The position numbers and the translations under genes were made by a program. The notes beneath the pieces were generated by a model. The model searched no databases, was not told the DNA's origin, and worked only from the letters and a program-made list of their open reading frames with translations. A DNA stretch of 64,000 nt from Heterotrichella gracilis (lineage: Eukaryota; Sar; Xanthophyceae; Tribonematales; Xanthonemataceae). Every line of letters starts with the position of its first letter. The first letter of the stretch is position 1. Shown here piece after piece: positions 1-62,185 of this stretch. The stretch covers positions 98,942 through 162,941 of the forward strand of contig JAULBX010032257.1 in assembly GCA_032358255.1 (NCBI GenBank), in the 5' to 3' direction.

Positions 1-2109
1 TTCTGCATCAGAAAACCCTCTTCCCACACCAATTCCAATAGGTTTTTCAGGCGCGAGTACCAGATGAACTACGCCATCTCCCAGCTGCGCACCCCCCGCG
101 TGGCCATCCTGCACGACATCACCATGGGGATCGGATGCGGCATATTCCAGCCTTGGAAAAACATTCCTTACCCCATCAACCCTATAATGTTTCCGCACCA
201 TAAAACCCCCTCCCAGACACAAATTCCAATAGGTTTTTCAGGCGCGAGTACCAGATGAACTACGCCATCTCCCAGCTGCGCACCCCCCATGTGGCCATCC
301 TGCACGGCATCACAACGGGGGGCCGAGTGCAGCATACTCCAGTTTTGAAACAATGGCCTTCCCCATTTAAACCCAAACAGGGCTGATTTACCGCACCATA
401 AAACTTCCTCCCACACCAATTCCCAATAGGTTTTTCAGGCGCGAGTACCAGATGAACTACGCCATCTCCCAGCTGCGCACCCCCCACGTGGCCATCCTGC
501 ACGGCATCACCATGGGGGGCGGCTGCGGCATCTCGGTGCACGGCAGGTTCAGGGTGGCCACAGAAAAGACGCTGTACGCCATGCCAGAGTGCGCGATCGG
601 GCTGTTTCCGGATGTCGGGGCGTCCTATTTCCTCCCCCGCCTGACCTTCCCCCAGCTTGGACTGTACCTTGGGCTCACAGGGACCAGGCTGAAAGGTGGG
701 GTGTGAAATCTTAGCCCTTCACTTGCTGTTTTGTGGGTGGTAAGGCAGATTTTCCACAGGGTTGCAAGCAGTGGGGGCGATGTGTGCCATGCCGGAGTGC
801 GCCATTGGGCTTTGATGGTTGCAGATTTCAGACATTTGATGAATGAATTTCCAACCCCAAAACCACGTTTCCCTGCTACAGGCATCGCAGTGAAGGAGGC
901 GGGCATCGCCACGCACTACATCCCCTCCTCCCGCCTCCAAACCCTGGAGCAGGGTTTACACGCCCTGGGCCCCTCCACAGCCCCCGACACCGCCATCGAA
1001 CACCTGCTGGGATCTCTAGAAGAGCATGCGGGGCCCAGCGAGTTTGCCGAATCATTTGAGCAAATAGACCGGCATTTCTCGGGTGCCAGCGTCGAGGCCA
1101 TTTACGCCTCCCTTGAGGCGGGGGTGGGGGATGATGACCCCTGGTGTGCGCATGCGCTGGATGGGCTGAGGAAGGGGTCGCCGCTGTCGCAAAAGGTGGG
1201 TAGGGAGTCGAAAAACCTTTGGCTGGACTTTCAGATAACCTCTTGACGAGGGTAGCGGTATATCCTATGCCTTGCACGCTATGCACCCTAAGCAGAATCA
1301 ATCGGCCTATCTCTAGGGGCCTTTTATGCCTCCTTTGAGGCCCTGCACCACTTGTGATCCCCCCACCCCACAACCACATGGCTCACAGCTGGAGGAGCTG
1401 CAGTGTGGTGTGGGGATCCCCACATCCGGACGGGCCTGGTGACGGTACTTAAAATTCCTGTGATACCCCCACCCCACCCCACCCAGCACCCCACCCCCAC
1501 CTCCTTTAACCCCCCCTGCGCAGGTCACATTTTTGGAGCTGCAGTGTGGTGTGGGGATCCCCACATCCGGATGGGCCTGGTGACGGTATTTAATAATCCA
1601 AAACCCTAATAATAATATTAAAAAACTGCGCAGGTCACATTTGAGGAGCTGCAGCGAGGCGCGGGCATGAGCCTGCGGGAGTGCCTTGTGATGGAGAACC
1701 GCATCGTGAATCACATGGTGCTGGGGCCATCGGACTTCTACGAGGGGGTGCGTGCGGCGCTCATTGACAAGGACGCAAGCCCAAGGTGGGTGGGTACTGA
1801 TGGTGGTGTGTGGAGTGAGTGGTGGTGGGTGGGGAAGGGCGGTGGGGTGTGGCGGTTGGTGGTGCCCTGTGATGGAGAACCGCATCGTGAACCACATCGA
1901 GCCTATTACCCTATTCCCAAGTTATGTAAACACAATGTACCTCCCGTTGCTCAACCTCCTCCTCCCCCCCCCTGTGCACCCGCAGGTGGTCCCATGGGTC
2001 TGTGGCGGAGGTACCTCCCCATGAGGTGGAACGGTTCTTCGCCCCCTTGCCCCCGCACGCTGAGCTGGCGCTGCCCCAGGCCCGCCAGCTGCCGCAGTCT
2101 CGCCTGTGA
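1..2109 (+). CDS. HIBCH: 3-hydroxyisobutyryl-CoA hydrolase, 3' part (5' end outside window)
   Basis: Hydrolyses 3-hydroxyisobutyryl-CoA in valine breakdown (mitochondrial or peroxisomal in relatives); crotonase superfamily. Supported exons are 439-695, 882-1195, 1634-1785 and 1986-2109, and their phases join cleanly. The first holds the oxyanion-hole glycine stretch MGGGCGIS and the catalytic-loop signature [18 protein letters not shown], which is specific for the hydrolase branch rather than plain enoyl-CoA hydratase. The second starts with an AGIATHY block typical of the family. The third carries NRIVNHM, and the last ends at TGA 2107-2109. Exons for the N-terminal part must lie upstream of the window. 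Two decayed copies of the start of the 439 exon precede it, and more exon copies lie in the later introns. A TGTAA at 2227-2231 may be the polyadenylation signal. Family assignment is firm; the exact 5' exon chain is not visible. Confidence 0.9.
26..340 (+). repeat. Two echo copies of an HIBCH exon start
   Basis: The intron end plus exon start seen at 412-530 occurs twice more, at about 26-150 and 211-340, in the same orientation and roughly 190-197 bases apart. Each copy keeps the polypyrimidine tract, the AG acceptor (exon edge at 51 and 242) and the first 80-90 coding bases, then diverges. Only the copy at 439 continues as an open, family-conserved exon, so the other two are read as pseudo-exons. 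Confidence 0.85.
783..1900 (+). repeat. Further echo fragments in HIBCH introns
   Basis: About 783-823 resembles the exon piece around 575-615 (the MPECAIGL region). About 1389-1448 and 1521-1595 resemble each other and the exon start at 1634, both continuing into a shared segment containing GGGGATCCCCACATCCGG. About 1861-1900 repeats the exon piece 1681-1720 (VMENRIVNH). All are direct orientation and no longer open as full exons. Confidence 0.75.
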
Positions 2110-2950: not shown

Positions 2951-5166
2951 ATGGCGCCAAACGGCAGCAAAGTGGTGAAGATAGACGTTGTCAGTGACGC
3001 CGTGTGGTAAGTGACTGCTCTGAGTTTCAGCGGCATGCAACCGCTGCATACGATCATACACCTGTGCTCCAGTGCGTGCCTGTCGTCACCCGCCTAGGAC
3101 GTGTAACCTTGGGCAGGGTTTTACAAGAAATTTGTTAGTTCTCTAGCCAGTTGGACGCACCCCCTTGCCATCCAAGGTGGCATCCCCACCGCTTCGCATG
3201 CCTTTCTCCAGCCATCATCTCTTTTTCCCACACACCCGGTGCCCCACTAAGAGTGGTACCTCTCGCTGTAACTCTGCACTGACTGCATACACGCTCCACT
3301 TCCAGCTCTCTGGCAGCTGACACAAGACTAGATTCCCATCACTCCCAACGCCTGTTCCCTTGCTTTTGTCCGCGTTTCTGTGTGTTTCATACTCAAACAA
3401 ATATAAGCTGTCTTTTTATTTTTTCACCCCGCAGCCCCTGGTGCTATGTCGGTAAGAAGTGCTTGGGAGACCGCCATCAGCAAGTACACATTGCAAAAAA
3501 TACAAAAATAAAGTACTTTCTTTTCCCCACAGCCCCTGGTGCTACGTGGGCAAAAAGCGGCTGGAGACCGCCATCAGCAGGTACACAGGGGATGCCACCT
3601 TCCAAGTGGAGTGGCACCCCTACTTCCTAAACCCTAACGCACCCGCCGAGGGTGTCAACAAGCTGGACTACTACAAGCAGAAGTTCGGGGAAGCCCGAGT
3701 GCAGCAGATGCTACCAGCCATGACGGTGCGCATGCACCCCATACCCCCTTACACACAGATGGTACCGCATGAGACCGCTTATCACCTCCCACTGCAACAC
3801 ACATGGTAGTTTGTTCCTCCATGCCCCTTCACAGGCAGATGGTTTTTGCACAAGGTTTGCATGTTATAAGCGCCCACGTGCAGTGGCACTGCACCACCCT
3901 GCACTTTACGACCACATATCCACACCCGCAGGGTACCAAAACCCTAACCGCTGGCACCGTAAACCCTAACTTTTCTCCGCAAAACCCTAATTCCAGGAGA
4001 CGTTCCGCCAGGAGGGCTTGTCCTATACCATGGATGGCAAGACTGGCAGCACCCTCAACGCGCACCGACTGCTGTCCCTGGCTGGCAAACAAGGCCTGGA
4101 CAAGCAAAATGCGCTGGCTGAGCAGCTGTTCAGCGCCTACTTCACACAGGTGGGAAACCCTAGGGTAGGGTAAATGGGGATAAGGCTGCAGTGCCTACTT
4201 CGCACAGTTGGGAAACCCTAGCGTAGGGTATGTGGCGAATTGTGTGAAGCGCCTGGTTCGCACAGGTGGGAGGGTGGGAAACTTCAAGAAACCCTAGATT
4301 ATGGTATATGGGGATTGGGGTTCCGCGCCCTTCCACGTCCACTTCACATTGGTAGAAGGGTGGGAAACCCTAGGGTAGGGTATGTGGGGATTGGGCTAAG
4401 CGCCCACTTTACACAGGTGAAATGGAAACCTCGGGTGCATGGGTTCAGCGCCTATTTTACGCAGTTGTGAGGAAAGCCCTAGGGTAGTGTCCACGGACCT
4501 TGCGGTGTGCAGAGACGCCATGCATGTGTGGGTAATTCTGAGAAGTAGATTGACCCCTGCCCCCTCTCCATTCCAAGCTGTGTGGCTTTGACAATACCAT
4601 TTCCCCCTTAGTCCAAGCTGTGTGTTATTGACGCTGCCGTTTCCCCCCTGCAGGGCAAGTTCATCAACGACCCCCAGGTGCTGCTGGAGGCGGCACAGGC
4701 TGCGGGGGTGGAGGGTGCGGAGGAGGTGCTGAACAACCCCCAGCTGGAGAGGGAGGAGGTGGTGCAAAGCGCACGAGATGCATCCGCTCGCAGCATCAGT
4801 GGGGTGCCGCACTTCACAATCAACAGCAGGTAGGAGGGTTTTCTTGGTGTACACTCTTTTGTCTGACCTATGTCGCTTGGTAAACAATAACTTAATAAAA
4901 AATTGAATGATAAGGAATAAATAACTGAATGGGGGTAATCAATTTAGTAAATGAATATCCTTTTACTGCCTGGTCCTGACCTACGCACCTGGTAAGGAAC
5001 AGGGTGCGGGGATGCCCATTGTCACTGTCCCGCACCCTTCCCATGGGATCCCGGCAGTCCCAAGTTTCGTGTGTGGATGCTCATTCTTGCTTTTCGTGAT
5101 TGCAGGTACAGCCTGTCGGGGGCGCAGGACCCCAGCGCCTTCCTCAAGGTGTTTGAAAAGGTGTAG
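2951..5166 (+). CDS. DsbA/FrnE-family thiol oxidoreductase
   Basis: Thioredoxin-fold protein of the DsbA/FrnE (2-hydroxychromene-2-carboxylate isomerase-like) family. Exons: 2951-3006, 3533-3725, 3997-4149, 4654-4829 and 5106-5166. They sum to 639 bases, giving 212 residues, the normal family length. The redox motif CPWC lies near residue 19, split by the first intron and followed by YVGKK. A helical insertion follows, with HRLLSLAG typical of the family, and a cis-proline loop SGVPHFTI precedes the C-terminal strand. The start at 2951 puts the motif about 18 residues in, as in cytosolic FrnE homologues, and no targeting peptide is seen. The substrate is unknown; some relatives are polyketide-related isomerases or dithiol oxidases. 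Introns 1 and 3 carry exon echoes. The family call is strong and the reaction is not known. Confidence 0.9.
3431..3491 (+). repeat. Echo of DsbA exon 2 start
   Basis: Decayed copy of 3531-3590 (acceptor CAG plus the PWCYVGKK coding piece), about 100 bases upstream of the true exon. It keeps an AG acceptor and an open reading for about 18 codons but differs at several positions. Confidence 0.85.
4120..4490 (+). repeat. Serial echoes of DsbA exon 3 end and donor site
   Basis: The exon end AYFTQ with its donor (4130-4165, followed by GGGAAACCCTAGGGTAGGG) recurs at about 4188-4222, 4246-4302, 4328-4395, 4405-4440 and 4449-4490. Each copy has a GCGCCYACTTYRCACAG-like exon tail followed by a GTGGGAAACCCTAG-like intron head. 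Five partial copies sit in direct tandem after the true exon. Confidence 0.85.
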
Positions 5167-9373: not shown

Positions 9374-12295
9374 ATGCGCAGCCTGGCGGGGGCGGTGCAT
9401 CGGGCGGGGGTGGGGAGGGGGGCGCACCTGGTGGGGAGTGGGGGCCGGGGGGCGGGTGGGGGGGGGGAGGCGGGGCACCACGCCATTGCCGCTCGGTTGG
9501 AGGGCAGCATGGGGTTGGCGCGGAGGCAGCAGGTGAGCCAGCGGGTGTGTGGTGTGGGGAAGGTGGGAGGTAGGGGGTGGGTAACCCCAGATGTAGGTGC
9601 AGGGGCTGTGTGGGGGGTGGGGGGTTGTAAATTGCTGCCGGGTTGAGCATGGCATGGGTGAGCAGGATGGGGTCTTGGCCGGGGTAGTATGGGTGGACCC
9701 TATAATAGGGTTTGTGGAATGGGTTGACCTGGGTGCACCTGGTGGTAAGGAGCTACGAGGATTTTTGCTGCAATGCTAGCCCAGCCAAACCCTATGTCAG
9801 GGTTGTCCATGTGGCAGCCAATCTGCATGCGCCAGCAGAAACCCCCCACCTCCCACACACCCCGGACACGGCGCCACCGCCCAGCAGGACCCTCCCACAT
9901 ACACCACCCACCTACGCCCACTTCATACCACACCTAAACCCACACCCCCGCCCCATGCACTCCCCATCCCCATCCCCACCCTCCAACCCGCCAACCCCGC
10001 AGGCCCGGCGCCTCCAGCAGCAGGACCGCATCTCTGACCAGACGGCTTCCCTGATGTACTGCGCGTGCAACGGCTCGGCGCTGGCCTTTGCGGTGCAGCA
10101 GGGGCAAGGGGTGCAGGTGGAGGGGTGCCAGTGCTGCGGGTCGAGGTGCGCCGCCACCCCTTAGGGTTTAGGGTTTTGCGTTGAGGCTCGGTTGAGGTTA
10201 GGCAGCAGGGGCAGGGGGTGCAGGTGGAGGGATGCCAGTGCTGCGGGTCGAGACGGGCGGACACTGTGTGGCCTGCGGGGGTGCTGTGGTGTGTGGGTTG
10301 GCAGCTACACGGACAGGTACTTGGGATGGCCCTTGCGTGCATGCCTTTCAGGTTCGCCCCGGCGTTTGCGATGCAATGAGGGCGGTGCTGGCGGGCTGCC
10401 AGTGCTGTGGGTCGAGCTGTGCGGAGGGCAAATACCCTACCTATAGGGGTTAGGGTCGAGTTTTAACCATTCCTTGCCTGTGGGTCGAGCTGTGCGGAAG
10501 GCAAATACCCTACCTATAGGGATTAGTGTAGCAGTCAGTGAAAAGGGCGGGTTGGATTGGGAATGCTCGTAACATATTACTGATATGTTACTTTTAGGGT
10601 TTGAGTTTTTGCCATCCCTTGCCCGTGCGGGCAGGGCTGCTTGGTAGGTACAGGATGACGTCACCCTAGTCGACTGGTGGTGAGGTATGTGACATAGTGG
10701 TTGCTGACTACCCCCTCCCCTTTTGCAGCCCCGATTCGTGCCCCCTCCCCACCCCACCAGCCGGGCCCCACGCCACGCTGGGAGAGGTGGGCATGGCCAC
10801 ATTCACGGGAGCAGGTGCGGCCCAAAACCCTAGCATACCCTCGCTGCTCACGGGAAGCTGCATGCGCACCAGCCACATGATGTGGTTTAATCAAATTAAT
10901 TAAATTTCAGTTATCGCATTCAGTATATTCTTTGCCCCCTCAGCCCCCTGCTCGCACTCTACAGCTGCATGCGACACAGGCACAGGCTATGGGTTTCATT
11001 CTCGCTCTTTGATACAGCATCCAACCTGTTGCAAGCATTTCTGGCAGCTAACATGTTGCAAATTATAAAATGGATGTTTTACCTCGATTTCCAATATGTT
11101 TTCCCTGTTGTCCCTCAGGCGCCGTCATGCTCCTGTTGCTGACCATGTACAGCTGCATGCGACTCATGCGCCACAGCAGGAGTGTGCGGAGAGGGATACC
11201 GCCCAGGGGCAGACCGCCGCCCACGGAGGCGCCGCCACTGCCAGGTGTGTGCTCTGTACCACACATGCATGCCATGTCTGTACCAAACATGCACGCCATA
11301 TGGTTGCCACGCATACTTTGTACCTATGGGTGCTCTCTAATCACACGTGGTCGTCATGTCCTGTGCTGGTGGTAGGTGCCTGTGGCTAATGCTTGCCTTA
11401 TGTGGTGCATGCAGCCTCTGGGGATTATTATGGGCTTATCATAGTACCCCGTTTGTGCGTTCCTTTTTCTGTCCCTCTATCCAACCCGTCTACCAATACC
11501 CGACGCAGATACCTGGCCGGGGACGATCGAAAGTTTTACTTCATTACGTATTCACAGATTATTTAGCGAGCAGGGTAACTTTTCATGCGCCCCCAACAGT
11601 CTTGTGGGCCTGGGTTGCCTCCCTGAATGTGACTGTCAAATAAATCTTGTAATCTTGTAATAATTCAACACTTTAATGCCCATGTGCCCGCCCCCCTGCT
11701 TCACCCCCCTCTCCTCCCCACCCACGCAGAGCTGCCCCCCTTGGATGTGCGCGGCCCCGGCCCAGGCGTGGAGGGGATGGCAGCAGAGTGCCCCATCTGC
11801 ATGGAGGAGGTCATGTGTGGCGATGCCACCTGGCGGGTGCTGCCATGTCAGCACGGCGTGTGCGCCACCTGCTACCCGCGCCTCATCACCACGCAGTACC
11901 AGCAGCAGTGGGGGGTGAGGAGGCACCAGCCGTGGGCGCAGGCAGGGACGCAGCCACAGGCGGAACCACCAGAGGAGCCACAGGCACAGGCGGGACCTCC
12001 GGCAGATTCGGAACCCCGGCCGCACGCTGAGGCGGAACCACATGCGGGACCACAGGCACAGATGGAGCCTCAGCCAGGGGTAGGAGCAGCCTCCCCCCCT
12101 CCCGCGCCCACAACCACCAGCGGTGGTTTGGAGATCATGGACCCGGAGGTGTGGTCGCCCCCATCCCCACCCGCACCCCAACCCGTGCCGCAGCCGGTGG
12201 GGGTGCAGGGGGAGTGGGTACCCCACGGTGGGTACCGGTACACCTGCCCGCTGTGCCGCAAGGAGATACCCTATTTATCTACCCAGTTGGTGTGA
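9374..12295 (+). CDS. Membrane-anchored RING-type E3 ubiquitin ligase candidate
   Basis: Exons 9374-9532, 10003-10145, 10729-10814, 11119-11244 and 11730-12295 join in phase (1080 bases, 359 residues if translation starts at 9374; an earlier start is possible, because an acceptor-like CAG sits at 9356-9358). The first two exons are unrecognised and contain a Cys cluster (GCQCCGS). The fourth encodes a short hydrophobic segment (VMLLLLTMYSC) followed by Arg-rich sequence, so a single-pass anchor with the C-terminus in the cytosol is likely. The last exon carries a C3HC4 RING: CPIC, then CQH, CATC and CPLC close to the C-terminus. About 124 Pro/Ala/Gln-rich residues separate CATC from CPLC, far more than in ordinary RINGs. 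The RING call is strong. The first exons are less certain because that region contains several near-duplicate copies. Confidence 0.75.
10203..10990 (+). repeat. Echo copies in RING-gene introns
   Basis: The end of the exon at 10003-10145 (GVQVEGCQCCGS coding piece) recurs at about 10203-10257, 10389-10425 and, as a tail only, 10478-10520. About 10940-10990 repeats the start of the TM exon (11117-11175, TMYSCMR region) including a CTCAG acceptor. All are direct orientation. Confidence 0.75.
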
Positions 12296-15015: not shown

Positions 15016-15952
15016 TGTACTTTCAGCTTCAGTGTGGCTTGTGCAGAACGAATATCTTCGACGAGTACATGAAGTAGTGCGAACAGCCATTGCGGTTTTT
15101 GCCTTCTCCATATGCAAACTTTGGCCGAACCGTTTGTCACACAGCACAGTGCAGCAGGTGTGTTTGATGGCTGCGCTTCTCAGCGTGACATGGGCACTGA
15201 CTGTACAAACTATTTTATGGGCTAGGGAATTGTGAGCATACTGTGAGGTTTGTTTCTACGGAGCCATTACCGGCACCGCGCCTGGCAAGTACCTACTGTA
15301 AATGCCTGTGAGGCTTTTTCTTTCTTTTTTTCGGTCTTTACAGGCAGGGAATTGACCTTCAGAGTGTGCTGTTTAGGGTTTAGGGTTTAGACCATGCCAT
15401 CAGTCAGACGTGCTTGCCTTCCCATCAACCAGAGCCAGTGAGCACGTGCAAGGGGTTAAAATGAATTGTTAGTGCAGTTGAAACGATTCTTCAAGGACAC
15501 TACAGCCTAGCTGGTATGCTTTCAGACCCGCCAGTGAGAGTTCCCGCGCTTTTTAGTAGGCCCAACCACCCAGAACCCTGTCGCTGAGTGCTAAAGCCCC
15601 ATACTACAGCATGGTTTCACCTTTCACAGCTCGTCATTATTTTCACAGCACTTGTTGAGAAGGATATCGAGGCAACGGGTTGAACGCGGATGCATGCATG
15701 CATATGCCCGGTGGATAGTATAGTGCAATGTCTTCAACCCGCACCCGCTCCAAGTAAATACATTTTTATTCTATCTATCTTTGACATAGTTTCAAGTTGT
15801 GCGTGAAGTGTGGCACAAACAGGGCTTGGGTCCTTTCATTGGCAGCGCTACTCACTTCAGCCCAGCCTTAAACGTTTATACAACCCACAGAGGCCAACCC
15901 AGCCACGCAGACGTGAGGCATCCTTTGTTGCCCTACCTTCACGGTCACATAG
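15016..15952. other. Spacer between F-box paralogues
   Basis: Holds TGTAA (15297-15301), TTTAGGG units at 15372-15390 and a GCATGCATGCATATGC-like run near 15690-15705. The bases just before 15953 resemble those before 13437, as expected from tandem duplication of the gene with its leader. Confidence 0.5.
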
Positions 15953-20785: not shown

Positions 20786-20922
20786 GGGGCCAATGAAGCT
20801 GGGCTAATCCAAGGTGTGGTTGAGTCACACCCTTACGTAGGGTTTATGCGTGGCACAATGAACCACTGGCCATGGCGCCGATGGAGCTGGGCTACTCCAA
20901 GGTGTGGTTGTGGGGGGAGTCA
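20782..20922. repeat. Tandem duplication around the BTB start
   Basis: A segment with CCATGG...GAGCTGGGCT...CCAAGGTGTGGTTG occurs at about 20782-20830 and 20868-20922. It covers the presumed start codon and leader of the BTB gene on the minus strand. Confidence 0.7.
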
Positions 20923-23440: not shown

Positions 23441-25778
23441 AGCCACGATCCCAACCCCCTCAGATCCCCCCTTGCTGACCTAATGATCCCACAGACTACC
23501 CGCCGCCCCCCAAGGGATCTCAAAATAGTATAATTGCACACCTTTGCGCACGCAGTCACCAGGCGCTGCCACTGCGCATCGAGCCAGTCGTCCACTGCCG
23601 CCCCCGGGGAGCCATACGCCAGGCTGTAGGCGGCTGCGTGGAAGCCGGTGCCCCCCATGATGTTGCCGATGGTCACGGGGATGAGGTTGTGCCACAAAAA
23701 GGTCCCCACGGAAATGCCCGATCCCAGGACCATGCTCATGGGGATGAGGAACATGTTTGCCACGCAATGCTCAAACCCCATGGCCACAAAGGCCGAGATG
23801 GGCAGGAAGATGCCGATGAACTTGCCTGCGGGTGGTGATAGATACATCATTATGTATTTCCTTTATGTGTAGCCGTTTTCGTTTTCTTACTCATTTTTTC
23901 GTTTTATTTTTATCTCTCAATTTGCAGATAACTTGCGGGTACCAGTAACATGCTGGCGACAGATCAGCGGCGTGGCTCACGTGCATTCAAGCAGTACAGC
24001 AATCAAGGGCTTGTTTAAATATGTAGAAGTGAGAGCACCATGCACAAGAATGGTCAGTAAGGCTTAATACCGATATCATTTTATTATATTTGTAAGGCTG
24101 AAGACAACCACCCACCCGCCAAGTCATAGGCCCCATTTGCCTGCCACACCGCCAGGTTGACTAGCCAGTTGCACAGCAGGCCCTTCACCATGGCCACAGC
24201 CCAGGGGTAGTGCGTCTTCTTCAGCGCAAGGTGGACTAGAAAATCGCTCCTCCCCTTAAATACCTCTCCAGCTGTCATGAGGCCAACCAGCATGAGGGCG
24301 CCTGCAGCACCACGGCAAATGTTGGCTAAAGACAAGGTATCACCATGCGTCTTATGTGGGCGAGGCTTTACGCCCATGACCACGATCTCATCTTGCCCTT
24401 CACCCACCTAATGGGCAGTTAAGTTAGGAGTAAAAGTGAGTTCAACCTTCCGGCGCCAGATACCACACCATCACCACATATCACAATGGAAAAATGCACA
24501 TCTGCATATCCGCATGGCCCATCAGACATTGACAACTGCTTTGCTGAGGGGGGTCTGGGCGATGCCACTCTTGAGCAGTCAAAGAGCCACCTGGTGCACA
24601 GCCAGCACAGGCAACCCACTCACCCAGTAGATTAGTGAGGTAGGACAGCACCCATGAGGAGGCCCAGCCCCAGGAGCTGACCTTGCCCTCCACCCGCCCA
24701 ATCAGCATGTAGGAGCAGTTGGAGGTGAACAGGTCGGTGTACAATACAACACCGCCACCACACAATTGAACATCTGCAACCCCGCATGGACCTGCCTAAT
24801 CACCAGGAACCCCACTCACCCAGTAGATTAGTGAGGTAGGACAGCACCCATGACGAGGCCCAGCCCCAGGAGCTGACCTTGCCCTCCACCCGCCCAATCA
24901 GCATGTAGGAGCAGTTGGAGGTGAACAGGTCNNNNNNNNNNNNNNNNNNNNNNNNNNNNNNNNNNNNNNNNNNNNNNNNNNNNNNNNNNNNNNNNNNNNN
25001 NNNNNNNNNNNNNNNNNNNNNNNNNNNNNNNGGCGCCTGACACCACCACCAGCGTGAGGCCAAAGGGGAAGCCAAAGGAGGAGAAGAGCAGGTTGAACAC
25101 GCCGGGCTGGGAGGTGCGGAAGTCCTCGTTCAGCTGGCCACCTGTGGGCGGAGGGTTTAAGGTCAAGTTCTGGCCTGGTTGGGGTTTGGGTTTTGGAATG
25201 GGAACAGTGTAAAATGGTGCTTGTAGGGTTTGGGAACGTTCTGAAAGGAGGTAATGGCAGAATTTAGGGTATAGGTCTGGCCAACTGCATTCAACTAGGG
25301 TTTAGGGTATATTTAAGGGTTTATTGCCTTATATCTGCCCGGGCTGCGTGCGGTTACGGCTAGGGTTTCGCCTTAGCACAAACCCTACACATACCTGCCA
25401 GGCTTTGCCCATGTGTAGGGTTTAGGGTTTTCGTGCTTGGCCAAATTGGCATACCAACCAGGGTGCAACGGGAAAACCCTAAACCCTAGCCGTGTGGCCC
25501 ACCAGCTATGGTGCAGAGGGCCCCACCCTAAACCCAACAAGGGTGGCCGCACCAACCAAGCTTGCCCTCTGTAACCGTAAACCCTAGGTACACGACGTAC
25601 CGACTAGGTTGCAGAGCGCAAACCCTAGGCCTATGTAGGCGCCCGCCAGCACCCCCAGCACCACCTTGCTGGTGAACCTTGCGTGCACTTTGGTTGCTGA
25701 GATGTCCGCTGTGTGGGCGTATATGTCTGGCGGGCTGAGGAGGGAGTACACGTGGACGGGGCCTGGGTGGTCCTGGAC
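23413..25778 (-). CDS. NAR1: Formate/nitrite transporter family protein (NAR1-like)
   Basis: FNT-family channel protein; in green algae NAR1 members move nitrite or bicarbonate across plastid or plasma membranes. Exons in gene order: 25778-25601, 25141-25032 (running into the gap), about 24931-24820, 24301-24116 and 23825-23413. Recognisable parts in order: GVLAGAYIGLGFALCN (TM1), FPFGLTLVVVSGA then DLFTSN (first FNT signature), LLCNWLVNLAVW (second signature), and KFIGIFLPISAFVAMGFEHCVANM (split across the last exon). The last exon ends at TGA 23413, but its final 40 residues are not family-like and the true end may be spliced. The first 30-60 residues, where a plastid transit peptide would be, are not identified upstream of 25778. 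A 100-N gap interrupts the gene. Family certain; transported ion not determined. Confidence 0.88.
24614..24931 (-). repeat. Near-identical duplicate of an FNT exon beside the gap
   Basis: 24614-24738 and 24810-24931 are almost identical: exon coding for DLFTSNCSYMLIGRVEG... to TNLLG plus its donor. The downstream copy has no AG directly before the coding match, so it looks unusable as an exon, while the upstream copy abuts the N gap. Could be a real echo or an assembly artefact. Confidence 0.8.
24932..25031. other. Assembly gap (100 N)
   Basis: Exactly 100 undetermined bases, a conventional unknown-size scaffold gap, lying inside the FNT gene between the VVVSGA and DLFTSN coding parts. Confidence 0.99.
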
Positions 25779-34700: not shown

Positions 34701-37700
34701 GCGTGCCCCTGGGCAGCCACCGAGGTGAGGAGGGAGCTCTGGAACCACCCGCGGTGCTGGTCCGAACCCTGCGCAAGGGTTACTTGCGGGTTAGGTTTTG
34801 AGGAACCGGATCATGATTAGGGTTTGTTGACAATGTTCAAGTTTGATGAGTACAATAAACAGTTCACCTGTAGGGTTTACAGGACCTGCAGTCGGAAACT
34901 TGGAGGCTTTCATTAGGGTTTTCAAGGGATTATCAAGTAGGGTTTTGGGTAGCGGTTTGCTTACCTCTAGGTACAGGTCGGCAGGGTAGTTAAGCCCCTC
35001 CCTGGCCTGAAGCACACCCGCCCATGAGCTGCCGCTGTCAAACCACACGTCCATGGTGTCCTCGCCCTGCGCATGGCACAAAACCCTAGTGAAAACCTAT
35101 CCCAAATGCCTAGGAGAAATGCCCTAATGGCTGACAATCTTGTCTGTAACTCACTAAAAGCACACCAATAATTGCATCCGCAACCCCACCTTGGCAGCCA
35201 CCACCGTCGCCACCACCCGTTCAACCCCCCACCTCATCGCCGCCACCTCCACCACACCACCACCACCCACCTTTCTCAACTTGGCCGCCTCCCCCTTGAG
35301 CCCCTCTGGCAGCAAATCCTCCACCTCCATCTGGAACCATGCATCGCTCCCCTTGGCACTAACCACCTCCGTGATGTGAGCCAGGCTCTCGGGGGTCATC
35401 AGGGGCTCGCCTGCAAGGAAGAGTGTAGGGTTTACGGTCTAGTTCAGGGTTTAGGTTAAGTTTTGCCATCCGCCACCTAGGTGTTGTGGGGCCAGGCTGT
35501 CGGGGGCTTGCCTGCGGTGGGATTGTTGGGGGTTGATGAGAGGGGTGTGTGATGGGGACATCAGGAGCTCTATAACAGTCTTGACAAAGAAAGTAAATCA
35601 CTATTTGCAATTGAGGAGGAGATCAGGTTTTAGCGCCCTGGGTGCAGAAGGCAACAGGGTAAGTTGGGTTTAGGGGTTAGGGTTTACCAGTCTCGATGCA
35701 GTAAAACACCGGTATGGCCCCGCCGCACTGTTTGAGGTTCCATTGCTTACGTTTAGGCTTCATGGATCGGAGTTTAAGGTTTTTAGGGCTTACCTGTCTC
35801 GATGTAATATAACACCGGGATGAGCACCCCCCACTTGCGCTGCCTGGAGATGCACCAATGAGACACCGATTTTAGGGTTTCATTCCGGGTTTAGGGTTTA
35901 GGGCTTCACCTGTCTCAATGTAGTAGAACACCGGGATGGGCACGCCCCACTTGCGCTGCCGGGAGATGCACCAGTCCGACCTTGACTCAGTCATTGCGGT
36001 GATGCGGTTCTCCCCCGTTGCTGGGATCCACTCCACCCCCCTGATGGCCTCAAGGGCGGAGCTGCGGAAACCCTCCACCGACGCAAACCACTGCGTAGGG
36101 TATTTCGGGAGGGTGAGAACGCCAGTGGGGAGGATGGAGACATATGCAGTTAGAAACCATGACAGATGACCAAACATCTGAGCTAACCCTCTACAATTAG
36201 GCAGGAAAATACCGGCATATAGAGAGGTAATTGCCCCCACCAGGTCCCAAAAATGACATTTTCGCTTCAAGGCAATTCCCGGAAATTACATGAAATATTC
36301 ACGAAACAGGGAAGGTAAGGTAGGTAGATAAAAGCTGACGATACAACACTGCCCCACCTGGTCCGTAGCTCTGAAGATGGTTGGCTGCTTTGTGCGCCAG
36401 TCGTAGGGGTACTTGTGCGCGTAGCTCTCCTCGAGCAGCAGGGAACCCTGGCCCCCAAGCGCCTCAATCACAGCGGCATTGCCCTCGCCTTGGACCTGCA
36501 GAAATGTAGGGGTTCAGCCGGAATCCTTTTGGGTAAGTAACTTCATGTTTTCAGCGCCGGTCGCATGGTGACTCCAACGCGGTGTAGGGTCCGCTACAAA
36601 GGTGTAGGGTCCTGCACAGCGCTGGCGAGTGCGGGCCAGGCTGGTTTGATACATGCCACATTGCCACCCACTTGGTGCACCACAAATGGCCCTGCCTCTG
36701 ATGTGAACAGGAACAAGAATTACAATGAGTGCATGTAAATGGAATAGTCTTCACCATTTGAGGTCCTTTCCTTATTTTATTTTCCATACATAAATCTGGC
36801 TTCAAGGCTGAAACGCAGATGTACTTTTTCCATGTATTGCCACCCACCTGCAGCCCCTCAAATGGCCCCGCCTCCGATGTGAACACCCCCGCATCATCCA
36901 CTGGAGACAGAAGCTCCAGACCGTAGCGCTGGCCAACCTGCACAAGGGTAGTGGTGCGTCAGGGAGGAACCCTAGCAGGGGGTATCTAAGCAGGGCTGCA
37001 ACTGAGCCGGGCAGGATTTATATGTTGCTGCCCCTAAGTATGCAGCCTGCGTCCTAAACGATTTCAAGACTTGCGTCAAGTAGGACATAAAGAAAGAAAT
37101 TGGATGAATTTGTGGGAGCTATGTGTAGTGATTATCACCATCTATACGCCGTAGACGTCGGTTGTTTTCATTTCTTTCCTGTTCCCACCTGGTAATCCTC
37201 CTGCCCATGCCCCGGCGCGGTGTGCACCAGGCCGGTACCCGATTCCGTGGTGATGTAATCGCCTCCAATCACCACAGGGCTGGTGCGATCAAACAGCGGG
37301 TGGCGGTAGGTCACCCCCTCCAGCTGGGCCCCCGTGAATGTGGCCAATTTGGCAAATGTCACCCCAAATTTCTCGCCCAGGGGCTCCAGCAGGTCCTCAG
37401 CGATGACCAGCTTTTTGGACCCCCAGGCCCCGGCGCCATCACCCTGCAGGAATGAAACATTTCAGACTTTGCACAATTCTGGAATTTAGAGACTTGCATC
37501 TAGAGAGCTACAGCACATTAAAAATGGGAGACAATCATGGATGATTGTTATTGTGTCAACAATCAACATCCAGATCATGTGACACAGGCATTGAGGGTAT
37601 GGGTTGAAAAAGGAACCCTATACCTAGGGTTTAGGGTTTCACCTGCGCCTCCACCAGCGCGTATGCCAGCCTGTCGTTGACCGCCACTGCCAGGTTGGCG

Positions 37701-41690: not shown

Positions 41691-41692
41691 CT

Positions 41693-42150
41693 GCCAAACT
41701 AGTGCACCACCCCAGTACCCAACTTGGCCCAGCCCCTCCCCACTCTTGTCCCCAACCGCATCCCAGACTTTATCCCCGGTCTCCTTCAATGCCAGCTATT
41801 GCACGCCGTTATCCGCCAGCTCTGCCCAAGTTATCCTCAGATCGCCCCAGCTCCCCCCGTTACCAGCTAGTTTACCACCCCATTTGGCCACCAATTCTGC
41901 CAAATCCCCAACTGCATCCCCAACCTGCCTGATCCCCTGTCACCTCCCCACCCACACCCTTGGCCTCCTCCGCTGCCCGCTGCTAGTGCGCCACCCCACT
42001 GGCCATCATCGCCCACCATGTCCCCAATCTTATCCAGCACAAAGCTGCTCCCTGATTCATGGCCTGTGCATGCCAAGGGCCGCGGCTGCCAGCTGCCCAG
42101 CTTAACCCCAAACATGCTCCCCTCCAGATAGCGCACCAATTGGCCGCCAA
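41693..42150 (-). repeat. Copies of the ASNS stop-codon region
   Basis: The end of the ASNS gene (42180-42270, around the stop and the FVLDKIGDE coding piece) is copied at 41967-42072 with few changes. Shorter copies of the CTAGTGCGCCACCCCA-like stop region lie near 41693-41720, 41857-41885 and 42115-42140. All are direct orientation, so the 3' UTR contains about four remnants of the terminal exon. Confidence 0.8.
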
Positions 42151-42191
42151 GCCCTACCCCAATCCCTAAAAAGAAACTCCGCTGCCCGCCG

Positions 42192-45100
42192 CTAGTGCGC
42201 CACCCCATTAGCCATCAGCGCGGCCTCATCCCCGATCTTATCCAGCACAAAGCTGCTCCCGGATTCGTGCACGTTGGTCATGGCGCGCCCCGAAATTTCG
42301 TGCACATTGGCCCACTCCTTATCCCAGGAGATGGCGTGCTCGGTGGAGCAGGCGATGCTGAGCCCCTTGGGGATGGTGTCGTAGGCGCACTGGGACGGGA
42401 ATTTCGACTCGAAGATGGAGCGCAGCAGGTAGTACTCCTGGGTGCGGGGCGTGTGGTCGGGGAAGCGCTCCGCGCGCGCAGCCCACTGCTCCTCCGTCAC
42501 CATGGCCTGGAGGAAACGGTAGGACTTAGGGTTTGGGGTTCAGGGTATAGGGTTTCAGGGAAGGGTTTCGCAAGCGCAGCCCACTGCTCCTCCGTCACCA
42601 TGGCCTGGAGGAAAAGGGAAAGGGAAGGGTTTATGGTTTAGAGTTTAGGGTTTCAGGGAAGCGCTCTGCGCGCGCCGCCCACTGCTCTTCCGTCACCATG
42701 GCCTGGAGGGAAGGGGAAAGGGTAGGCTTAAGGGTTTAGGATTCAAAGTCTCAGGGAACCTAACTGCGTGATGCTGCCCAGCTGGTCCCTCACAACCCCT
42801 CCTGCAAACCAGTTCGACGCCCTAGACCTATTGCAAGAAGCCCAGCCCCTCACCCATGCATAGGCCTTGAGCCCTTCCACCCACGCATGAACTGAAATGC
42901 TCCTGCCTGAACCCTTCAAATCCCCAAACCCTCCTTTCACACCCTGGTCCCTTCAGCCCGTCCACCCATGAGTATCCCACCCTGTCCCTAATCTGCTCCT
43001 GCACAAACCCTCCCCCAACCCCACATCAACCCTAGACCCTTTCTCCAAACCCCAGCCCTCTCACCCGTGCGTAGTCCTTGAGCCCATCCACCCACGAGTA
43101 GCCCACCCCGTCGCTAAACTGCTCCTTCTGCCGCCACAGGATGTCCTCAGGCAAGTAGGGCTGCTCGGTGTCGTGGAAGGCCTTGCGCAGGATGTACTTC
43201 TCGAGCTTTGGGTGCTCGCCATCCGGCCGGGCGGCAAGGTCGATCTGCAAGGGGGGGATTTATGGGTGAGGGGAGTACAGGGTCCCCACAGGGTTGTGTG
43301 TTTAATAATGTCTTTGGGGAGGGTTTGGCGTGTGTTTGGTGTGTATTTAAGCAGGGTACGTTTGGCAATCTGATGTACTTCTCGAGCTTAAGGTGCTCTC
43401 CATCGGGCCGGGCAGCAAGGTCAATCTGGTGGGGGGGAGAAGGGGAGATGCGGATTAGTTAAGAAGTCAAGGGCAGCGTGTGGGTGGGTGGTGTGGTGAA
43501 GCATGCGGGTGAGGGTGTGGTGTGGTGTGACATGCAGATACGGATGGTCTGGGTTGTGGGAGGCCTTGCGCAAATTGTGCATCTCAAGCTTAGGGGTGCT
43601 TGCCATCCGGCCGGGCGACAAGGTCGATCTGGTATGCAGGAAGTTGTGGATCAGAGGGAATTGCAGGGTTTGGTGTGTTTGGCATGTCTTTGAGGAGGGT
43701 TTGGCGAGTGACTTTTAAGCAATTTGGCAGAATAGGAGAGGCAATCTGATGTACTTCCCAAGCTTGACAAAACCGATGGTCTGTACTCCTCATGGCCTGT
43801 GTTCTCATGACCGGTGTGCAGGAGCTCTTTATCAACAAGGTTCTAGGGTTTTAGGGTTTCCTGCTTACCATCTTGTCTGCCGGGTCGATGTTCATGACTG
43901 TGTGCAGGAACTCCTTGTCCAGGAAGGGCACGCGCGTCTCCAGGCCAAAGGCAAAGGGCGCCTTGTTGGCGCGCATGACATCCCACTGGTGCAGCCGGGC
44001 AACCAGGCGGACGGTCTCTCTGCAGGTGGCGGGGAGGGGTGTTACTACTGGGGGATTGGGATGGCGGGGGCTAAAGCTGTACAACTGGGTGGGTGGGGCG
44101 GTGGGGGGTGCGTCACGCCCAACTGGTGCAGCCGAGCGATCATGCGAGGCGAGTGGGGTGGGTGCAGACTAGTACAGGCACCGCCACACACCGTCAGAGA
44201 AGCTGTTTGAGACATGATCACCGCCACATCCCGCAAACACCAAACACCCCGGTGCGCTCCCTTTTTTATACAATTTCTTTCTAGTTGTTTTGTTACTCTC
44301 ATGATAAAGCCCCGCCCCACCCCATCCCCTTCCCTCCCCACCTCTGGAGCCCATCCCTGAACATAATTGCATCCCCGTTCTCCCCTCCCCCTCACCTGTG
44401 GTACTCCTCCCTTGATGGCGCCTTGTGGAAGTACAGGTACCCCCCCAGCGCCTCGTCAGCGCCCTCCCCTGACAGCACCACCTTGATGCCAAGCGCCTTG
44501 ATGCGCCGCGACAGAAGGAACATGGGCACGGAGGCGCGCACCTGGGGGGGACACAGGGTTTCAGCAAGGGTAATGGCCAGGGTTCAGCAAGGGTTGCAAA
44601 AGGAACATGTACACGGAGGAGCGCACGTGGGGGGAGACAACAGGGACTGAGCAAGGGCATTGGCCAGGGTTTCAATCCATGTGCCAGATCCCTATATCCA
44701 GCGCCTCCAGCCCCTCCTCCACAAACAACGTGGACCCGCCAATTCAAAACCCTGATTGACAGCCAATACCCTAAATGATACCCTACCCTCACACCTGCTC
44801 CCACGACTCTATGTGCCAGATCAAGCTCTCCAGTGCATCCAGTCCCTCCTCCACAGTGGCCGTGCACCCACAAGTCAAAACCCTAACTGATACCCAAGAC
44901 CCTACATGATACCCTAACCCCGCACCTGCTCCCACGACTCTATGTGCCATATCAAGCTCTCCAGTGCATCCAGCCCCTCCTCCACAGTGAACGTGAACTC
45001 GTGGTGCTCCGTGCCAAGGAAGTTAGCCACCTTGCGGGCCGCAACCAGGTCGGGGGATCCGGGCAGCCCGATGCTGAAGGTGTGGATCTTGTGCTTGGTG

Positions 45101-47440
45101 TCAAAGGCGTTCTTGGACTCCTTGAGATGCCTGGGGTGAGTGCAGTGAGGGTGGTTTTCTTGTTGGTCTAACTTTGGGTGAGGGGGAGTGTTCTTTGGTA
45201 TCTTTTGGTGCATAGGTTGGGAGGTGCAACGGGTTTTTGGATATGACATACGCCCATATGTGTGCCCGATGCAGATAGTGTGAATCGTGTTCGTGGTGTC
45301 AAATGCATTCTTGGACTCCTTGAGATGCCTGGGAAGATGGGGTATGCGGCAATGGGTGGCGCATATTGGCGCAGCTCCTGCCATGTGCATGCTTCCCCAC
45401 TCCACGCATCAGATGAGCATTTGTGCGCGCCGCCATGTACAGCGCCAACAAACGCCACAATGACAATATTTCAAGCTTTACTGCCATTTTCAGACTCTGG
45501 CGCAACTTCTTCCTAATCCCCACCTGACGGCTACGCTGGCCACCAGGGATGAGTCCAGTCCCCCAGACAGCAGGATCCCCAGGGGCACGTCAGACATCAG
45601 TCGCTTGACGGTGGCGTCGATGAAGGATTGCTGCAAGGTAAGGGATAGGCGTGGGGGTGGGCGGTTGCACAAAGCTGGTGGGCACAGCACTGGTTGAGCT
45701 CATGCAATCCAATCCAGTGCATAAGGGTTTAAGCTTTAGGGTATAGGGTTTAGGTGCTTCACGGTGGCGTCAATGAATGCTGCAGGGAAGGAGGCATCTC
45801 AGTGCAATGGCATCAGCAAGGTGCAACATTCAATGTGATCCAGTGGAACGGGATGCCCACCAACTTCAAGCAACTGAGCACATGCAACCCTCATGCTTGT
45901 GGCATCACCAGCGCGACGTTGAGCTGTTGTGCTCGACAGCGTGCAGTACAACCAGAGCCGCAAGGGGGGTGGTGCAACTTACCCTGAGGTGTGGGAAGTC
46001 CACCGGCGTGTTTGGAATGACGTCGATGTCGATCCACGAGGGCTTGAACCACCGCTCAACCTTGCCGGTGCTGCTGCGGTACACGTGGCCCTGCGATGTA
46101 AAGCCGGGGGTAAGGGCATTGGTCAAGGTCAATGGTTATGGGGCATGGCCAAAATTATGGGGTACTGAGGTCCACATCCTTTACTTCTATGGCGCAACTG
46201 CATGCATTCAACGGTGGCGGTGCGGCTTGCAGGCACAAGCGGTACCCCGCGGCCCTGATGGGGGGTTGGGGGTAGGGCGGGAGTTGGGGCGGAAGGCGGT
46301 CAGGCCATGCAGTGCGCTTTTCAAAAACCGAATAGGGTGCCAGCAGCATGCGGCGGCACATATGGCCATGCGGCAGGGGTTGATGGGGGTGCGGGGTCGG
46401 TGCATGGCATGCACCCTATCATGCAGCAGACACAATGGGGGACAATGAGGTCCAGTGTCCATTCGCATACATCGCAACTGCATCTATCTGGTTTTTGCTG
46501 TGTGTCATGACGGTACCTGCCTGTTGCAATGGCCTGCGCCACCCCAGTCATGGCATGCATGTGCACCCCCCAGTTGCATGCATGTGCTTTCATCTGTGCA
46601 TGCACCCTGCTGGCATTTGGGCAAGGGGTGTGGTGCTGGTGCAAGTGAATCACCGGGGGGAACAGGTCGAACGACACGCAGTTGTCCTGCAGGGCCTTCA
46701 TCTCCGATGCAAACCACATTGAGCCATCAGCGCCCTTGCCCCAGTACAGCGAGCAGATGCCGATGGGGTCCCTGGCTGCAAAGAACTCGCCCGTCCTCTC
46801 GTCCACCACCACGCACGCGAAGATGCCATCCAGGTGGTTCCACAGGTCGTTGGTGTGGCCGTACTTGTCGTACAGGTAACCCACAATGGAGGAGTCAGAG
46901 TGGGATGGGATGTCCACTCCAGCCAGGAGGGTGTCCCGGACTTCCTGGTGGTTGTAGATCTCGCTGTTCCTGTGGTTGGGTTACGCAAAAGGGTGATAGT
47001 GGGCGTGGTTGGAAGGCAATGCATGGGAGGAAGCCAGCATTTGACGAAGGACACCGTGACCACTGTGAAGGCACGTGGTGGTCATGAGCTTGGATGGTGC
47101 GTTCAAAACTTACAATGCCCACGCAATGTTGCCGTCGGGCTTCTCGATGACGAAGGGTTGCCTGCACATTGAAGCGTAGGTTAGTTCCCAGCCATACAGG
47201 GCTCGCTTCTGAGGTTCTTTCGTAGCTAGGTGCCCAAGAAAGGTGCACGTACTTCCCGGAATCGGACGGGTCCACAATCTGGAGCCGTTCGAAAGCCAGG
47301 AACGACTTCCCATCGGTGCTCTCCCACACAGCGCTTGAGTCTGGCCCTCTGTGCCTAAGGAGCGTGCTGGCCCTCACAACCTTGCGCCTGTTGGTCAGTG
47401 GATCGCCCACTAGGCCAAGGGCGGCGAGGATGCCACACAT
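42192..47440 (-). CDS. ASNS: Asparagine synthetase (glutamine-hydrolysing)
   Basis: Makes asparagine from aspartate, glutamine and ATP. Ten exons in gene order: 47440-47253, 47161-47114, 46969-46654, 46090-45983, 45630-45524, 45130-44926, 44541-44396, 44019-43869, 43244-43065 and 42506-42192. They give 1764 bases in phase, 587 residues, the normal length. The protein starts MCGILA, so the catalytic Cys2 of the glutaminase domain is present, followed by RHRGPDSS and LNSEIYNH. LNGEIYNH is usual; here the Gly is Ser. The synthetase domain has the PP-loop SGGLDSS (residues 242-248), [21 protein letters not shown] and [11 protein letters not shown]. The C-terminus ends ANGVAH. It lies near a nitrite-type transporter gene, but the distance (about 17 kb, with other genes between) gives no evidence of a nitrogen cluster. 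This gene has the densest set of exon echoes in the window. Confidence 0.96.
42566..45790 (-). repeat. About twelve exon-edge echoes in ASNS introns
   Basis: Copies at about 42566-42612 and 42657-42711 (start of the last exon); 42835-42892 and 42953-43003 (end of exon 9 with donor); 43374-43430, 43578-43633 and 43750-43775 (start of exon 9); 44115-44160 (start of exon 8); 44600-44635 (start of exon 7); 44684-44735 and 44802-44862 (end of exon 6 with donor); 45282-45345 (start of exon 6); 45757-45790 (start of exon 5). In the intron 42507-43064 acceptor-side echoes sit next to the downstream exon and donor-side echoes next to the upstream exon, as serial tandem duplication across each boundary predicts. 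Confidence 0.85.
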
Positions 47441-48367: not shown

Positions 48368-48383
48368 CAAGTAGCGCATTCAG

Positions 48384-48568: not shown

Positions 48569-48581
48569 GGAGGGTTGTGTA

Positions 48582-59883: not shown

Positions 59884-62185
59884 GGCCCCCAACGGACGTC
59901 GGCCCTGATGGCGCCCATCATGCTGCTCACGGGCCACGCAGGGGAGATATACACACTCAAATTCAACCCGCAGGGGGACGTGTGCGCCTCCGGGTCCTAT
60001 GACAAGCACCTCTTCCTGTGGAGGGTGTATGGCGAATGCGAGAACTACATGATGATCAAAGGTGAGGCGCGCGATTGCGACTCTGAGAGCGGCTTTAAAA
60101 GCCAGACACCAGTGTAGCCTGGGCAGGAACGCCTATCAAAGCCGAGCACTGGTTGCCGTAGCGCTTTGGCAGCGACTGCAGTAGACTAACAGCAGTGCAC
60201 AGAGGCTGAACAATACCTTTTGGGCCCTCCTAAACCCTAAACCCTGATTTCTTCCACACTCAGGCCATAAAAACGCCGTGCTGGAGCTGCACTGGACCCC
60301 CGATGGCGAGAAATTGCTGTCCTGCTCACCCGACAAGTCTGTGCGCGCGTGGGACGCAGCCACTGGCACGCAGCTCAAGAAGATGTCGGAGCACTCGGAG
60401 TTTGTGAACAGCGTGTGCCCGCTCAAGCGCGGGCCGCCTCTCCTGGTCAGCGGGTCAGATGATTGCACTGCAAAGGTGCGGGGATGTAGGGTTTCAGTTA
60501 GGGTTTAAGGATGTAGGGTTTTAGGATCGTGCGGGGGTTGGGTCAGGCCCAATTCTTTGGTGAAGGGGCAGCTGAGTCCTGCGGGGTTGCGCCTCGTTCA
60601 TGCATGCATATCGGTGTATGAATTGAGAACCGGAGGCCCAAAAATCCTAAGCCCTGCATGTGCTGCCCGCAGCTGTGGGACCTTCGCTCCAAGCGCTCCA
60701 TCAAGACCTTCAACGACAAGTACCAGGTCACATCGGTGGCGTTTGCGGAGGCTGGGGACCAGGTGCGCGCGCTGGGGGCTGGGAAAGGGAGGGAGCAGCA
60801 GTATGAAAGGAAGCTCTTCGTGTTTGCAGCGGGACACTGGGCTTGGTGGTGGGAGTTGTCTGTTGCGCAACTCGGGGATGTAGTACTTGCTGATTGCAGT
60901 GTGCAAGTGCAAGTGAAGGAGGAAGGCAAACAGCCAAGACAGGTTCTATGAGACACACATCATTGCCTGACTGCATAGCCCTCCCTCATACCTCTACCCA
61001 CCCACCCCCTTTACAATCTCCACCCCCACACCCCCCACCCCCAGGTGTACACCGGCGGCATCGAGAATGTGATCAAGGTGTGGGACATCCGCAAGGGCGA
61101 GGTGGCGATGACCCTCAAGGGCCACACAGACACCATCACGGGCATGCGGGTCAGCCCAGACGGCAACCACCTGCTGAGCAATGCCATGGACAACACACTA
61201 AGGTGCTGCTCGACCTGCGAACCCTAAACCCTAGCATATAATCCCTAGACCCTAAATCGTCATCACACCACCAACTGCTGAGCAACACCATGGACAACAC
61301 ACTAAGGTGCCGCCACATGTGCATAAATGTCCAACCCTAGCATTCAACCCTAGACCCTAACGCGTCCTCACACCACACCACAACTGTTGAGCAACGCCAT
61401 GGGCACTTGCAAAGGTGCTGCTCATCCCCGCACCGCCTGAAACCTACACCTACACCTGCCTTGCTGGGTCCTTTTATCATCTTGGGGCGTCCTGCTGACA
61501 CCCTGTTGTTTCTTTTCTTGTTTCAGGGTGTGGGACATGCGGCCCTACGCGCCCGCCAACCGCTGCCTCAAGGTGCTCACCGGCCACATGCACAGCTTTG
61601 AGAAGAACCTGCTCAAGTGCGACTGGTCACCGGACGGCACGCAGGTGGGTGGGGGGGGGTGTCAAGGTGGTGGCAGCGATGAATGTGGTGGTGATGGCGA
61701 TTGAGTGCGTGGTGGTGGTTCAATGGGCTTGCGCTTTGGGTGTGGGGCACTTGTACCGCAATGTGTGCATGTGACATCTGTACAACCCTAAATCCCTTAA
61801 CATCCCCCCCTGCAGGTCGCTGCGGGCAGCGCTGACCGTAACGTGTACATCTGGCATCCATAAATCCCAAAAACCCTAAAAACCCTCTTCCTCCTTGCAG
61901 GTCACTGCGGGCAGCGCTGACCGCAACATTTACACCTGCCGTTCCTAAACCCTAAAGGCCTAAACCTTAATTACCCTAAAACCTTCTCCCCCCTTGCAGG
62001 TCACTGCGGGCAGCGCTGACCGCAACGTGTACATCTGGGACGTGGCCTCGCGGCGCCTGATGTACAAGCTGCCGGGCCACACGGGCAGCGTGACTGAGAG
62101 CGTGTTCCACCCATTGGAGCCAATTGTGGGGTCTGCGGGGTCGGACAAACAGATCTACCTGGGCGAGCTGGCGCCGAGTGTGTGA
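59884..62185 (+). CDS. SNRNP40: U5 snRNP 40 kDa WD40-repeat protein
   Basis: Component of the U5 snRNP that contacts PRP8 in the spliceosome. Exons 59884-60061, 60264-60475, 60673-60762, 61045-61202, 61527-61644 and 62000-62185 join in phase (942 bases, 313 residues to TGA 62183-62185). Seven WD40 blades are recognisable, with LTGHAGEIYTLKFNP, KGHKNAVLELHW, LWDLRSKRSIKTF, GGIENVIKVWDIRKGE and LLSNAMDNTLRVWDMRPYAP. FEKNLLKCDWSPDGT, AGSADRNVYIWD and KLPGHTGSV follow. The NAMDNTxRVWDxRP and FEKNLLxCxWSPDG blocks are specific to this protein. Human SNRNP40 has about 40 more N-terminal residues. Here the first exon opens in phase 0 after an acceptor, so a 5' exon is missing, although ATG 59908 could also start translation. 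Candidate TGTAA at 62674-62678. Confidence 0.93.
61262..61940 (+). repeat. Exon-edge echoes in SNRNP40 introns
   Basis: The end of exon 4 with its donor (61165-61212, LLSNAMDNTLR) recurs at about 61262-61306 and 61379-61420. The start of exon 6 with its acceptor (61990-62040, AGSADRNVYIW) recurs at about 61813-61856 and 61896-61940, spaced roughly 85-100 bases with CCCTAAA tracts between copies. All are direct orientation and several retain usable-looking splice sites. Confidence 0.88.

Follow-up and report, generated by a model that had tools for sequence, protein, structure and literature searches.

How did the introns of Heterotrichella gracilis come to hold pieces of the exons beside them? 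The question is raised by a stretch of 64,000 nucleotides of this xanthophyte (contig C902 of a genome of 68.5 Mb in 903 contigs), hereafter the window. An initial annotation had described in the introns of several of its genes partial copies of the adjacent exon boundary, here called echoes, and had seen in them an ongoing local mechanism of intron growth. The echoes are confirmed as real and above chance: they are tandem duplications across a splice site, as a group they decay neutrally, and part of the joins between copies carry sequence resembling the telomere repeat.

Gene models were predicted from the sequence by a small gene finder trained on the window together with further sequence of this genome (its acceptor profile is GCAG/G); in these models HIBCH and the DsbA-like gene are fused into one run. 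The counts come from two samples: one of 303.9 kb (304 kb below; the window, L009, L010-L027 and L032-L036), with 69 predicted genes and 435 introns, and a smaller one of 254 kb (G000) with 322 introns.

Compared with itself at E<=1, the window yields 64 direct pairs separated by less than 1 kb and no inverted pair, self-palindromes being excluded; at E<=0.01 it yields 42 direct pairs less than 500 bases apart and again no inverted one, here with palindromes included. Distances above 5 kb are seen in only 2 of 46 window pairs. In 51 of the 64 pairs one copy or both share at least 12 bases with a predicted exon; 5 of these 51 are entirely exonic and correspond to protein repeats, while the remaining 13 pairs include at most one exon base. 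Echoes are found beyond the window as well: within 600 bases the 303.9 kb contain 120 direct pairs against 2 inverted (24 self-palindromes set aside), in keeping with the direct orientation first described. A count over 19 loci gave 57 direct and 13 inverted pairs within 500 bases, with self-palindromes scored as inverted; two later counts that set these apart give 0 and 2 inverted pairs, the 2 being those of the 303.9 kb. The 120 pairs form 71 clusters, namely 39 exon/intron, 10 between different predicted exons (some being echoes that the gene finder accepted as exons), 5 protein repeats, 11 intron-only, 4 intergenic and 2 exon/intergenic. The offset between copies is mostly 76-344 bases, and the span of a direct pair touches 82 of the 435 introns.

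The exon-edge test compared the 120 nt edge of an exon with its own adjoining intron, the controls being inverted matches and the introns of other genes. In the 304 kb sample (score >=32) direct matches were found for 64/794 edges, against 2/794 inverted and 0/2382 in other genes' introns; in the 254 kb sample (score >=30) the corresponding values are 67/608, 2/608 and 2/1824. Direct matches exceed both controls in both samples. For exons of at least 240 nt (304 kb, score >=32) the near-side intron is matched in 12/180 cases and the far-side intron in 0/180, which is the side predicted by a tandem duplication across the boundary; this part of the mechanism first proposed stands. Copies end exactly on the splice site in 24/48 donor and 16/30 acceptor cases, and at most 2 nt from it in 30/48 and 19/30; GT or AG is retained in 20/30 and 12/19 of the latter, respectively.

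The link with intron growth is borne out by intron length: at a score of at least 40, 26/116 introns of 350 nt or more contain an echo, against 10/206 shorter ones. Echoes also clump by gene beyond this effect of length (57/322 introns with an echo at score >=32; 0/2000 permutations reach the observed value). Some genes of the 254 kb sample are rich in echoes (5/13 introns) and others with as many introns have none (0/13). Matched by gene order, the genes first named as bearers do hold echoes at score >=40, in 4/17 introns of HIBCH/DsbA, 1/10 of RING, 2/6 of BTB, 1/6 of FNT, 4/17 of IleRS, 5/12 of ASNS and 2/7 of SNRNP40; the four genes described as echo-free have none (0/7, 0/5, 0/3 and 0/6 introns). 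The figure of more than 10 copies is not confirmed: exon included, no array exceeds 3 copies in the window or 5 outside it, as counted on telomere-filled joins only with six echoes allowed.

Copies are found in all stages of decay, with identity quartiles of 78 and 88%. Between an exon and its copy in the intron the differences amount to 9.4, 9.8 and 19.8% at codon positions 1, 2 and 3, and intron aligned to intron, away from splice sites, differs by 17.9%. Positions 1 and 2 thus differ half as much as position 3, as expected if one copy is free and the other constrained, i.e. one dose of change against two.

TTTAGGG is the telomere repeat of this genome: arrays stand in the right orientation at the start of at least seven contigs (C70, C140, C526, C609, C717, C770 and C824). 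Gaps between copies were scored for telomere-like stretches together with flanks of equal length; pairs whose gap was shorter than 8 bases, longer than 200 bases or contained N were dropped, leaving 86 of the 120. At a score of at least 12 a telomere-like stretch is present in 19/86 gaps, 3/86 upstream flanks and 2/86 downstream flanks (Wilcoxon p = 2.5e-6). The gap score is 9.0 for TTTAGGG and 5.2 for scrambled repeat units. The excess is also seen in clusters made of a single pair (7/37 gaps; 1/37 and 0/37 flanks) and with intronic flanks (2/79, against 18/79 for their gaps). In introns devoid of duplications telomere-like windows are found in 70/1920 cases beside splice sites and in 27/960 random ones (three draws per intron). 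Counted per cluster the values are 16/62 against 2/62, but the best pair was chosen by its gap score and this figure is biased to the gap; our conclusions on the filler rest on the pair counts.

Joins were also paired, exon edge by exon edge, with the sequence after the last echo. The repeat is in the join only in 15 cases, after the last echo only in 3, in both in 3 and in neither in 32, 7 of the 60 being not judgeable (p = 0.0075). By score it is therefore absent after the last copy in 15 of the 18 judged filled joins. Filled joins of the clean kind are seen in the window in the RING gene, and elsewhere in introns of C79, C277 and C814. Inspected by eye for microhomology, some joins share AGG or TAG with the telomere repeat.

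Telomeric filler at the joins, missed earlier, suggests filler synthesis in the course of break repair instead of plain slippage, one of the routes initially proposed. The reading that we put forward, at even confidence, is that break repair duplicates a local stretch, with telomeric filler at some joins, and so makes introns grow. A break, the presumed trigger, would arise in or near an intron, near a splice site; the broken end would be extended with TTTAGGG by telomerase, or telomeric DNA would be captured; the extended end would then re-anneal a short way back, and re-synthesis from there would make the second copy. The product would be an exon edge, a bit of intron, telomeric filler and the exon edge again. 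Such a duplication across the splice site would be neutral because splicing at the outer site would still yield the correct message: the echo would stay in the intron, which lengthens, and would decay. Telomerase is probably the maker of the filler. In a stronger form, which is possible but less likely than not, telomerase would be a main engine of intron growth in this lineage, capping exon-bearing break ends that re-enter and recopy the exon, and introns would be layered records of healed breaks, each with a telomere scrap and an exon echo. A telomerase RNA-binding domain was found at C626; its locus (3.2 kb, L037) has four direct repeats (134-263, 412-531, 591-825 and 1395-1542), the first with TTTAGGG-like sequence between its copies.

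Several results weigh against this break-repair reading. Lowering the threshold to a score of 10 shrinks the excess (gaps 26/86, flanks 7/86 and 11/86). In 3 of the 18 judged filled joins the repeat is found by score after the last echo too, and inspection by eye shows a repeat there, degenerate or better, in about 6 of 19 filled joins, including one IleRS intron and the two of SNRNP40; in those cases the repeat may be older than a duplication, or a later duplication may have copied it along, and this lowered our confidence from slightly above even to even. Clear telomeric filler is lacking in 41 of the 60 exon-edge joins scored, so that most joins require either another route or decay. The orientation of the filler (donor side, G 6 and C 4; acceptor side, C 9 and G 0; Fisher p = 0.011) leans as expected from telomerase acting on the exon-bearing end, but echo-free introns lean alike (donor G 11, C 8; acceptor C 12, G 3). 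We have therefore set orientation aside as proof of telomerase; splicing constraints may cause the lean. Finally, clusters in intergenic DNA are fewer than a uniform process predicts (see below), which break repair leaves unexplained.

The repeats after the last copy would suit telomere repeats that came first and acted as fragile sites, triggering duplications beside them, as would the fact that in all four length classes telomere repeats are more frequent in introns with duplications than in the others (10/31 against 15/81 for introns of 350-600 nt). A pre-existing repeat should nevertheless also flank the last copy, and with so few telomere-like flanks on either side we regard this order of events as rather unlikely. 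Plain local tandem duplication, by slippage or template switching, would need no filler and agrees with the large share of joins that lack it; the telomere motif would merely be abundant in introns, as it is anyway: telomere-like heptamers number 1003 in introns (107 kb), where 86 are expected from dinucleotides, 43 in exons (19 expected) and 165 in intergenic DNA (52 expected). Between the copies, however, 22% of gaps are telomere-like against 2-4% in length-matched flanks and duplication-free introns, and the paired test prefers the join by 15 to 3; we rate plain duplication as unlikely.

The initial annotation had tied the copies to exon edges, and a mechanism aimed at these edges would explain why 49 clusters cross an edge (the 39 exon/intron ones and the 10 between different predicted exons) whereas 11 are intron-only and 4 intergenic. 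An exon-edge pair stays recognisable longer than an intron-only pair because its exon copy is constrained; in a simulation of uniform placement over present intron lengths, intron-only and intergenic pairs were thus given half weight, the constrained exon copy being taken as recognisable twice as long. It predicts 56% crossing, 22% intron-only and 22% intergenic clusters. So corrected, the ratio of 49 to 11 fits uniform placement (p = 0.057; 2.7e-5 without correction), and the intergenic deficit persists (p = 8.5e-4; 3.1e-6 without); clusters were treated as independent, and clumping by gene makes these tests optimistic. Aim at exon edges, which we consider improbable, is not needed: crossing duplications leave the message intact and the constrained exon keeps the copy visible longer. 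That echoes serve as alternative exons or splice sites could be argued from the GT or AG that many boundary-reaching copies keep and from those taken as exons by the gene finder. Two constrained copies should however differ far less at codon positions 1 and 2 than is seen; the rates fit one free copy, so that function as the rule is rejected and we rate it as very improbable. An assembly artefact could be suspected in two near-identical pairs at N gaps (24608-24931 in the window and an intron of C13). Misassembly would not give pairs of which the middle half are 78-88% identical with a codon-position structure in their differences; it is rejected for the decayed copies and, as a general explanation, can hardly be right.

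The arrays of the window are collected in Table 1.

Table 1. Direct copies in the window, by gene (positions in the window; filler motifs in the sense of the gene where so marked).
Gene	Feature	Position	Strand	Remarks
HIBCH	Intron end and exon start, three copies	5-143, 196-334, 393-531 (1..531)	+	Spacing 191, 197; copies against first copy 78 and 87% ungapped, 85 and 92% gapped
HIBCH	Acceptor-side echoes of exon 1634-1785	1394..1668	+	1516-1558 copies 1626-1668; 1394-1458 copies 1535-1599
HIBCH	Echo 1862-1897 of exon stretch 1681-1716	1681..1897	+	94% over 36 nt; exon-internal, off the edge
DsbA-like	Echo 3419-3490 of intron end and exon start 3517-3587	3419..3587	+	82% over 72 nt
DsbA-like	Donor-side array of exon 3997-4149	4128..4490	+	Period 58 at 4132-4271, further copies; contains telomere-like AAACCCTAGGGTAGGG
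RING	Donor-side echoes 10202-10252 (96%) and 10361-10422 of exon end 10145	10083..10529	+	Filler TTAGGGTTTAGGGTTT separates exon from first echo
BTB	Four arrays	19274-19594, 19812-20070, 20136-20394, 20776-20955	-	20776-20955 intron-only
FNT transporter	Two copies	24608..24931	-	97.7% identity; second ends at assembly gap 24932-25031
IleRS	Donor-side echo 32855-32905 of exon stretch 32990-33038	32855..33038	-	82% over 51 nt; TTTAGGG-type filler (sense) between exon and echo
IleRS	Exon end and two donor-side echoes	35666..35973	-	CCCTAAA repeats (sense) after each
IleRS	Donor-side echo of exon 36848-36937	36660..36885	-	86% over 50 nt
ASNS	Coding-end copy downstream of gene	41968..42269	-	86% over 94 nt
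ASNS	Three acceptor-side copies	42457..42793	-	Period 98; CCCTAAA-type filler (sense) in joins
ASNS	Donor-side echoes of exon 43065-43244	42782..43126	-	
ASNS	Acceptor-side echoes of start (43244) of exon 43065-43244	43148..43765	-	
ASNS	Acceptor-side echo 44597-44671 of start of exon 44396-44541	44512..44671	-	84% over 75 nt
ASNS	Donor-side array of exon 44926-45130	44676..45001	-	Period 131, 2.4 copies; degenerate TTAGGG filler (sense)
ASNS	Acceptor-side echo 45264-45333 of exon start 45066-45135	45066..45333	-	87% over 70 nt
SNRNP40	End of exon 61045-61202 and two donor-side echoes	61166..61423	+	CCCTAAA-type filler after exon and first echo, none after second
SNRNP40	Three acceptor-side copies, last = exon starting near 62000	61755..62038	+	AAACCCTAAA filler in both joins

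The pattern is readable by eye in ASNS (periods 131 and 98) and in SNRNP40, with its three donor-side and three acceptor-side copies. In the first HIBCH array the last copy runs into exon 439-695 and presumably holds its true start; L009, upstream of the window, has one more decayed copy (81% identity). Weaker pairs include 570-811, 37882-38057, 38371-38679 and 45603-45791. At the two N gaps with near-identical copies (24608-25031, and the C13 intron in L018) the gaps may conceal longer arrays.

Seven of the nine window protein sequences scanned have Pfam matches, namely ECH_2 (HIBCH), DSBA, BTB, formate/nitrite transporter, asparagine synthase, WD40 and ribosomal L3. The Pfam scan gave no match for the SMN-like protein, for which the initial label SMN finds no support there, nor for a bare HIBCH exon translation; IleRS, RING, ZC3H and the membrane protein carry the labels first given to them and stand outside the nine. 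No RNA family reaches its gathering score in the window. At 2123-2206 lies a GTGGTGGCG-type minisatellite, of which many similar copies occur on other contigs, and 13492-17669 contains two adjacent paralogous genes, 67% identical over 1.4 kb, whose start, judged by eye, is presumably F-box-like. Among the most frequent heptamers in introns of the 254 kb sample are palindromic TGCATGCA ones (TGCATGC, 93 times). In echo-free introns of that sample, at 20-40 bases from either splice site, the coverage by telomere heptamers is roughly double the mean over introns; this peak is perhaps what remains of older events. At 1440-1600 of L029 a piece of some 20 bases recurs between telomeric runs, a miniature of the echo pattern.

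Tandem exon duplication copies exon sequence locally and in direct orientation; here, by contrast, mostly an exon edge and its splice site are copied and then decay neutrally. Tandem duplication and the filling of breaks with telomeric sequence are each known already. Telomeric repeats are inserted at double-strand breaks in primates and rodents, where a target duplication accompanies 4/25 primate and 6/130 rodent loci (Nergadze et al. 2007, PMC2246262). Our joins resemble these insertions in that telomere repeats appear set in a break, sometimes with target duplication, and in that the insert matches the organism's own telomere, TTTAGGG, both at contig starts and in 19/86 gaps. They differ in that duplication is there a minor class, whereas here the telomere-like sequence lies in the joins of tandem duplications, many crossing splice sites. 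In potato, a duplication across an intron-exon boundary yields a new intron (PMC4974935; reviewed in PMC3443670). There too the boundary is crossed and the copies carry splice signals; a new intron of one gene is described, however, whereas here existing introns grow, 82/435 are touched and some joins hold telomeric filler. Introners, elements that copy themselves into many genes, likewise add intron sequence by repeated DNA (PMC9860276); unlike them, echoes copy their own neighbouring exon. In the 304 kb sample at score >=32, exon-edge queries match none of the 2382 controls in other genes' introns. No report combining tandem duplication with telomeric filler was found in the literature on telomeric repeats in introns, telomeric duplication joins and exon fragments in introns, as covered by titles and abstract openings with few subscription journals.

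The growth of introns and the traces left by breaks are usually hard to read since both copies decay. Here coding constraint fixes one of them, and a single small genome may offer many legible joins of differing age. Should telomerase be the maker of the filler, this genome would be a test bed for the part of telomerase in ordinary break repair, and also for a possible supply of spare splice sites.

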